DNA from: Elusimicrobiota bacterium
Lineage (GTDB): Bacteria > Elusimicrobiota > Elusimicrobia > UBA1565
Length of the DNA stretch: 64,000 nucleotides
Reading direction: 5' to 3'
NCBI GenBank assembly: GCA_016196755.1
Contig: JACPXC010000019.1
Coordinates: forward strand, 1-64,000
The notes beneath the pieces were generated by a model, which worked only from the letters and a program-made list of their open reading frames with translations, did not search any database and was not told where the DNA came from. Made by a program: the position numbers and the translations under genes. Below, piece after piece: positions 15,325 through 34,883 of the stretch (position 1 is its first letter; each line of letters begins with the position of its first letter).

Positions 15325-15333
15325 AAGGAGGTG
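15325..15333 (+). promoter_or_regulatory. Unusually strong Shine-Dalgarno before the 30-aa peptide gene
   Basis: AAGGAGGTG matches the anti-Shine-Dalgarno of 16S rRNA at nine positions, 7 nt before the ATG at 15341. It is the strongest ribosome binding site I see in the window, where many first genes have none. This marks the tiny ORF as really translated. Confidence 0.85.
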
Positions 15334-15340
15334 GATCAAA

Positions 15341-15433
15341 ATGGAAAACAAAATCGACGACAAGGCGAAGGCGGCCCACATCGCGGAAGCGAAGGCCAAG
15401 GGCGAGCAGTTCCCGGATTTCGTACCCTGGTAA
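15341..15433 (+). CDS. 30-residue micropeptide (RiPP precursor or leader peptide candidate)
   Basis: Encodes 30 residues: a charged, helical N-terminal part rich in Lys, Asp and Ala (MENKIDDKAKAAHIAEAKAK), then a distinct aromatic/Pro tail GEQFPDFVPW ending in Trp. The strong Shine-Dalgarno 7 nt upstream sets the start. A terminator-like hairpin follows 14 nt after the stop, and its T-tract runs into the start of a 2OG-Fe(II) oxygenase gene. A two-part leader/core look, high predicted translation and a downstream oxygenase fit a modified-peptide precursor. An attenuation leader peptide is the alternative. No homologue is recognised. Confidence 0.65.
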   Translation: MENKIDDKAKAAHIAEAKAKGEQFPDFVPW

Positions 15434-15447
15434 CGACCGGGACCCAG

Positions 15448-15488
15448 GAGGGCGCGCCGGTCAGGTGACGGCGCGCCCTCTCCTTTTT
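15448..15488 (+). terminator. Terminator/attenuator hairpin between micropeptide and 2OG oxygenase
   Basis: A perfect 11-bp GC-rich stem (15448-15458 with 15470-15480, GAGGGCGCGCC) is followed by TCCTTTTT. The ATG of the next gene (15489) comes immediately after the last T. Termination here would give a short peptide-only mRNA with read-through into the oxygenase, or an attenuator. Confidence 0.8.
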
Positions 15489-16241
15489 ATGAAGCCCATC
15501 GCCTCCACCGAGAGCTACGCCGTCTTCGATGACGTCCTGTCGCCGGAGGACTTCACCCTGTTCTGGAACTACATGCAGGACGAGGACTACGCCTACGTCC
15601 GCTCCGGAAAATGGATCAAAGCCTTCCGCACCGGCGACGGCGACTGCCTTCAGGGCCCGGTCTACCTCTCCGAGCGCGTCACCGAGGACCAGCCCTACAA
15701 GCCCTACCCGACCGGGCTTGGCATCGACCTCCTGTTCAAGAAGGTCCGCGCCGAGGCCGAGGCCTTCAAGCCCTGGATCGGGACCCAGGGCAAGGACTGG
15801 GACTACTTCTCGGCCCGCCCCTACCTCTATCCCGCCGGCACCGGCCTGTCTTGGCACGACGACTCGCTCTCCTACATCGGGGCTTTCGCCTACTACGGCC
15901 ACCCGGAGTGGAACATCCAGTGGGGCGGCGAGCTGCTGATCGCCGCGGAGAAGCCGCGCATCGGCGCCTACCCCAAGCGTCCCGTCGTCGGCGCCCCCGA
16001 GGGCAAGATGATCGGCTTCCACTTAGACAACGCGGGGCAGAACGAGCGCCTGCTCGGGCCCGGCCTGGGGACCTACGTCCAGCCCAAGCCCAACCGCCTC
16101 GTGCTCATCGGCCGGGGGATCTCCCACACCATCAAGAAGACCGAGGCCGACGCCGGCGACCGCGCGCGCGCCTCGGTGACCGGCTTCTTCGTCAAGCGCC
16201 AGAAGCAAGGCAAGGACGCCCTGCCCAAGGGCTACGACTAG
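15489..16241 (+). CDS. 2-oxoglutarate/Fe(II)-dependent oxygenase
   Basis: A 250-residue cytoplasmic protein of the 2OG-Fe(II) dioxygenase (prolyl-4-hydroxylase-like) type. The facial triad is visible: HxD in GLSWHDDS (His123, Asp125) and the distal His in GRGISHTIKKT (His213), with Arg225 or Arg227 in the following strand for 2-oxoglutarate. WGGELLIA between them is the usual core strand. The ATG at 15489 follows directly on a terminator T-tract and has no Shine-Dalgarno, so translation may be low or depend on read-through from the micropeptide gene. Likely role: hydroxylating a peptide, protein or small molecule. The neighbouring 30-aa peptide is the obvious candidate substrate (inference). 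Confidence 0.85.
   Translation: MKPIASTESYAVFDDVLSPEDFTLFWNYMQDEDYAYVRSGKWIKAFRTGDGDCLQGPVYLSERVTEDQPYKPYPTGLGIDLLFKKVRAEAEAFKPWIGTQGKDWDYFSARPYLYPAGTGLSWHDDSLSYIGAFAYYGHPEWNIQWGGELLIAAEKPRIGAYPKRPVVGAPEGKMIGFHLDNAGQNERLLGPGLGTYVQPKPNRLVLIGRGISHTIKKTEADAGDRARASVTGFFVKRQKQGKDALPKGYD

Positions 16242-32178: not shown

Positions 32179-34883
<2,705 letters not shown>

Follow-up and report, generated by a model that had tools for sequence, protein, structure and literature searches.

A very short gene with a strong Shine-Dalgarno (SD) sequence stands directly ahead of a gene for a 2OG-Fe(II) oxygenase in the 64,000 nucleotides of Elusimicrobiota DNA analysed here (the window), and a family of gammaproteobacteria has this pair as well, with a peptide tail of the same type. 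With a probability of roughly 0.64, the peptide is a precursor whose tail is modified by the prolyl-hydroxylase-like oxygenase, a hairpin between the two genes lowers the amount of enzyme, and a third protein takes part in the pathway. Behind this reading stand the conservation of the pair and of the tail, the co-occurrence of the third gene, the catalytic motif of the oxygenase, and its kinship to oxygenases of RiPP-type loci.

The features of the window, all on the plus strand, are these:

15325 to 15333, plus strand: Shine-Dalgarno sequence AAGGAGGTG, 9 nt, placed from the sequence 7 nt ahead of the peptide ATG at 15341.
15341 to 15433, plus strand: micropeptide ORF, 30 aa, MENKIDDKAKAAHIAEAKAKGEQFPDFVPW and stop, the proposed precursor.
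15416 to 15430, plus strand: codons for D-F-V-P-W, the conserved tail (acidic, aromatic, x, Pro, Trp), which matches the gammaproteobacterial D/E-Y-M-P-W.
15448 to 15480, plus strand: perfect 12-bp hairpin with a 9-nt loop, between the peptide and enzyme genes.
15484 to 15488, plus strand: T-tract (T5) abutting the oxygenase ATG at 15489; terminator-like (intrinsic type), probably partial.
15489 to 16241, plus strand: 2OG-Fe(II) oxygenase, 250 aa (P0001), with a predicted PHD/P4H-like fold.

A sequence-only reading of this DNA had described most of this architecture. The SD sequence that it placed 7 nt before a 30-codon ORF, and the C-terminal end GEQFPDFVPW of the 30-residue peptide, are both there. 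Its perfect hairpin and T-tract are real as well, with a stem of 12 bp rather than 11, and the oxygenase ATG does touch the last T, with T5 ending at 15488.

Those reading a short ORF as a gene must, of course, ask whether it stands there by accident. Here, the accidental view would be that a 2OG oxygenase of no special kind happens to be preceded by a short ORF unrelated to it, and that what separates them is a usual terminator. No second example of the pair was found in the phylum of the window, and conservation therefore cannot be seen from the window by itself. However, a PW ending is rare, being found in 2 of the 353 ATG ORFs with 15-60 codons that the 64-kb window contains, and the same arrangement, with the same tail type, stands ahead of the enzyme's closest known relatives in another phylum. 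We regard chance as highly improbable. The peptide ORF is also the sole ATG ORF on its own strand of the window to have a 9-nt match to AAGGAGGTGAT, and the exact 13-mer AAGGAGGTGGATC is present once in the 64 kb. On the minus strand, at window position 33470, one other ATG ORF (83 codons) has a 9-nt match to the SD consensus.

Searches close to home gave little. The peptide has no paralogues in its own genome and was not found in relatives from the order of the window genome; a candidate homologue (L013) was rejected as a weak match (E 0.3) sitting within a long frame. The oxygenase subfamily together with the peptide is, within the phylum, confined to the window genome. The sole other relative of the oxygenase in the phylum, a distant one in G189 (L003), has no PW peptide ahead of it. 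Scanning genome contigs for the oxygenase gave no match with the single protein and, with an alignment (A2), only RiPP-type relatives. An Rfam search gave no match, nor did a viral scan with alignment A3. A viral scan for the pattern of SD, ATG, and PW before a stop gave three matches, all out of frame and therefore attributable to chance.

The conserved pair was found in another phylum. Sampling the class of G341, a Paludibacterium genome, gave two genomes (G383 and G524) with closer relatives of the oxygenase, 42-43% identical to that of the window and nearly gapless in alignment. Directly upstream of the oxygenase in both is a 21-codon ORF with the SD sequence AAGGAG, encoding MKEFYINRIDAEEDKDEYMPW and MKEFHFNKIEADEDKDEYMPW. 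The closest relatives of the oxygenase, with identities of up to 44%, are in 28 of the 143 genomes of one gammaproteobacterial family, which we would guess from gene content to be the Legionellaceae. In every copy examined, second and decaying copies included, an SD-led short ORF with EDKDEYMPW lies immediately upstream. Second oxygenase copies within one genome (L070, L071, L084-L086) likewise have the peptide.

Comparison of 17 distinct coding sequences from this family gives 0 non-synonymous versus 244 synonymous pairwise differences in the tail (codons 13-21), and a dN/dS ratio of about 0.57 in codons 2-12. Because the changes in the tail are synonymous only, the ORF must be translated, and its end must be under strong selection. 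The tail across the two phyla has the form [D/E]-[F/Y]-x-P-W, where PDFVPW of the window corresponds to DEYMPW (acidic, aromatic, hydrophobic, Pro, Trp). The rest of the window peptide differs in length and sequence, and only some five residues are common to both phyla, which counts against the precursor reading. The gammaproteobacterial peptides have exactly one proline, penultimate in the tail. Three of them (L049, L058, L059) have a five-residue extension past PW, and a free C-terminal Trp is thus not obligatory, a further point against that reading.

The sequence-only reading had named tails of the FPxFVPW kind, conserved together with the enzyme, as its support, and had held that orthologues without an upstream short ORF, or an ORF without amino-acid conservation, would count against it. 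Such tails are seen across phyla as [D/E]-[F/Y]-x-P-W, the orthologues do have the ORF, and the ORF is conserved as amino acids.

The enzyme itself has the residues expected of an active member of its superfamily. The metal triad HxD...H and the 2OG-binding Arg (H123, D125, H213, and R227) are invariant in an alignment of eight sequences (A1). Matches to Pfam 2OG-FeII_Oxy_3 (E 1.6e-4) and 2OG-FeII_Oxy_4 both fall under the gathering score. A profile search of PDB sequences placed 6t8m, a prolyl hydroxylase, first, and also matched OGFOD1. In Foldseek, an AF2 model (mean pLDDT 65, pTM 0.71) was best matched by PHD2, Dictyostelium PHD 6t8m, and P. putida P4H (E ~1e-7, TM ~0.5), with PolD and PasI matched as well. 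This gives moderate support to a double-stranded beta-helix fold as in prolyl hydroxylases, only moderate because the pLDDT of the model is 65, which counts against the precursor reading. Further, since PolD and PasI are among the matched structures, the fold alone does not fix the residue that is the target.

The residue hydroxylated by PHD2, Dictyostelium PHD, and P. putida P4H is proline, within proteins or peptides. The likeness of the window enzyme to these three (P. putida P4H with EF-Tu) consists of the predicted fold and the HxD...H...R site, and the one conserved proline of the peptide is a plausible target. To our knowledge, the substrates of known PHD/P4H enzymes are large proteins or chains of the collagen type, and none is a dedicated micropeptide from a neighbouring gene. 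Trees neither supported nor refuted the window enzyme as sister of the gammaproteobacterial clade, which counts against the precursor reading.

More distant relatives offer a different kind of evidence. Those obtained with tblastn on plasmids and by a genome scan, at ~35-40% identity, are near a borosin-like TP-methylase and a precursor with tandem HPRLQAAAPMNLAKVIGGFDSTK repeats in Serratia and Paludibacterium, near an MNIO/DUF692 (MbnB/TglH/ChrH) enzyme in Streptomyces, and directly upstream of a 1060-aa LanM-type lanthionine synthetase in G458 (L041:6187-10024). That relatives lie in or beside loci of RiPP type gives separate grounds for thinking that the family acts on ribosomal peptides. 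The split-borosin-like and MNIO loci share with the window an oxygenase of this family (~35-40% identical), but they have unrelated precursors and other modification enzymes.

The Serratia and Paludibacterium loci (L014:2071-4732, L015:1921-4729, L005:996-3732) hold a precursor, the TP-methylase, a 308-319-aa protein, the oxygenase relative, and an MFS transporter; these are split-borosin-like clusters with a 2OG oxygenase, one of them on a conjugative plasmid. A Corynebacterium plasmid (L010:900-4016) has a 23-codon SD-led ORF, a CAAX-type protease, a 260-aa protein, a lasso-type PqqD, and an oxygenase relative. On a viral contig (L016:2571-5730), a relative lies between two proteins that look, from their CxxxCxxC motifs, like radical-SAM proteins. 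A relative in cyanophage S-CAM4 (L012:3001-3600) is named “DNA endonuclease V” in RefSeq and in PHROG 19810, which looks like a misannotation, the sequence being that of a 2OG oxygenase relative. One candidate pair (L090, in G856) was rejected, as the relative there is fused behind a glycosyltransferase-like domain in a single 606-aa frame.

These relatives bear on a second view of the peptide, in which it serves the oxygenase, or the third protein, as a small subunit (structural or activating) and not as a substrate, with the tail docking into the enzyme. The strict one-to-one pairing, the conservation of the tail, and the co-duplication fit a subunit as well as they fit a substrate. However, the relatives in Serratia and Paludibacterium adjoin repeat-type precursors and have no such peptide, and PHD/P4H-fold enzymes, as far as we know, generally work without micropeptide subunits. 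We consider a subunit improbable.

The region between the two genes invites a third view. The arms of the hairpin (15448-15459 and 15469-15480, AGGAGGGCGCGCCG...CGGCGCGCCCTCTCCT) are 100% complementary, and positions 15434-15491 have a folding energy of -31.9 kcal/mol (z = -3.56), equalled in none of 200 shuffles. In the gammaproteobacterial loci, a hairpin (AAAGGAGAT...ATCTCCTTT) precedes the enzyme in most copies. Covariation among relatives gave no signal exceeding shuffles.

Here, the peptide would be a regulatory leader. Its nascent x-P-W-stop end would make the ribosome stall, or set its timing, at the stop codon, and in this way control the hairpin (a terminator or a block to translation) and oxygenase expression. 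The hairpin of the window, like that of most relatives, begins some 4-14 nt past the peptide stop, within the footprint of a ribosome; at the peptidyl-transferase centre would be the conserved end of the peptide; and the oxygenase ATG has no SD sequence beside it, in the window or in most gammaproteobacterial relatives. Nascent-chain regulators, too, show a conserved C-terminus behind an N-terminus that varies more, and this counts against the precursor reading.

With an attenuator, every member would be expected to have a terminator-like or sequestering hairpin behind the leader ORF, and a stop at a fixed position relative to that hairpin. However, the L042 group, L062, and L068 have no recognisable hairpin, and their peptides keep the same tail. 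In L049, L058, and L059, the frame of the peptide continues for five codons beyond PW to a stop inside the hairpin, with the oxygenase and third gene intact. There, the stop TAA has become TTA, adding five residues after PW. Nor does regulation explain why relatives of the enzyme are in loci of RiPP type. The attenuator, offered as an alternative in the sequence-only reading, is thus weakened by a hairpin that is common but not universal and by a tail that is invariant in the other family. We regard it as unlikely, though less so than a subunit; it is a minority view, or a secondary role. We would rather see the hairpin as a dosage device, giving much peptide and little enzyme, than as an obligatory switch.

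The third gene completes the comparison. In 29 of the 30 gammaproteobacterial loci, the enzyme is followed by a protein of 355-373 aa, for which Pfam and PDB searches gave no kin naming a function. The window genome has a homologue (~39-42% identity) on another contig (G000:C6:77786-78778), the only one among the 341 genomes of the phylum. This homologue and the gammaproteobacterial form share segments that are missing from the homologues in Streptomyces and haloarchaea. Within the 143-genome family, the third gene and the oxygenase are together in 27 of the 28 oxygenase genomes; the exception, G821, has a truncated oxygenase and no third gene. The only trace among the other 115 genomes is a fragment of the third gene in G789. 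This co-occurrence is the strongest sign of a system with three parts, with genomes of the same family not being independent of each other.

A viral scan with an alignment of the third gene gave no match. Members of its family are on Streptomyces and haloarchaeal plasmids (L072:3911-5008, L073:3914-5008, L074:3935-5029), where the neighbours are an asparagine synthetase and aldolase or a VOC protein and dehydrogenase, and no oxygenase is in the stretches read. Because the family occurs there without the oxygenase, what it does may extend beyond this system.

Loci of RiPP type are recognized by several marks. A short precursor gene adjoining a (putatively) modifying enzyme is in the window and in all gammaproteobacterial copies examined. 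The precursor and the enzyme are conserved together, the former in its amino acids, and the enzyme family occurs in RiPP-type loci (with TP-methylase, MNIO, LanM, and lasso PqqD neighbours). A dedicated leader peptidase, an exporter, or another RiPP enzyme adjoining the pair was not found among the scanned neighbours, which counts against the precursor reading. These neighbours comprise a DUF2079 membrane protein, a PMT-like glycosyltransferase, and unannotated proteins. An M13 peptidase lies 3.5 kb from the pair, with minus-strand genes between. In relatives from the genus, the downstream neighbour gene is present and the surroundings differ, so that no empty site can be demonstrated.

Since orthologues have the ORF and tails are conserved together across phyla, the pairing of precursor and enzyme is the leading reading. 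Of the “minimal RiPP pair” that the sequence-only reading proposed, the pair stands and the word “minimal” probably does not, because a third protein co-occurs. In the mechanism that we propose, the strong SD sequence would cause a 30-residue ribosomal precursor to be made in excess, and the hairpin would lower enzyme relative to peptide. The adjacent oxygenase would modify the conserved C-terminal tail, [D/E]-[F/Y]-x-P-W, most likely by oxidising (hydroxylating) its one conserved Pro or the Trp at its end. The third protein, whose gene follows the enzyme in the gammaproteobacterial loci and lies on another contig in the window genome, may be a partner, a maturation protein, or an effector, and would assist the reaction or make use of its product.

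Mycofactocin and PQQ are cofactors derived from peptides, with short precursors that have a conserved end, in distant phyla; these are made with radical-SAM enzymes. The window differs in having a 2OG oxygenase, with no radical-SAM enzyme among the scanned neighbours. Tailoring of RiPPs by 2OG oxygenases is itself already known, in one case with a helper protein. CorC of corallotide, a graspetide, is a 2OG-Fe(II) oxygenase with a partner or helper protein (CorD), and hydroxylates Lys, after the graspetide synthetase, on a large repeated precursor (PMC13097080). What the two have in common is that the genes of a ribosomal precursor and a 2OG-Fe(II) oxygenase go together, and corallotide has a helper for the oxygenase as well; the pair described here differs in that no other RiPP enzyme was seen with it and in that the precursor has 21-30 aa. 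A plant RiPP decarboxylase uses 2OG-oxygenase chemistry (PMC12871766). In the open-access literature, we found no account of a precursor of 21-30 aa that stands alone with a prolyl-hydroxylase-like enzyme and this third protein, and the three-part system has apparently not been described before.

A further step is tentative, and we think it rather less probable than its alternatives taken together: that this is a new class of ribosomal peptide product, where a tail oxidised by a dedicated hydroxylase-like enzyme, with the third family, gives one fixed small molecule. If that is true, a tail that is invariant within a family, and of a type shared between phyla, would mean one fixed molecule rather than a diversified toxin.

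If the precursor reading is correct, this would be a very small system for peptide modification, consisting of one precursor of 21-30 residues, one hydroxylase-like enzyme, and one further protein. It would be conserved between phyla, and its precursor is so short that gene finders could miss it. It would also give an orphan prolyl-hydroxylase-like enzyme a candidate substrate and place the third-gene family in a pathway. In one bacterial family, at least 28 genomes have the system. That the tail does not vary from species to species suggests a role in physiology and not in warfare, and the fixed product, if there is one, could be a cofactor, a metallophore, or a signal.
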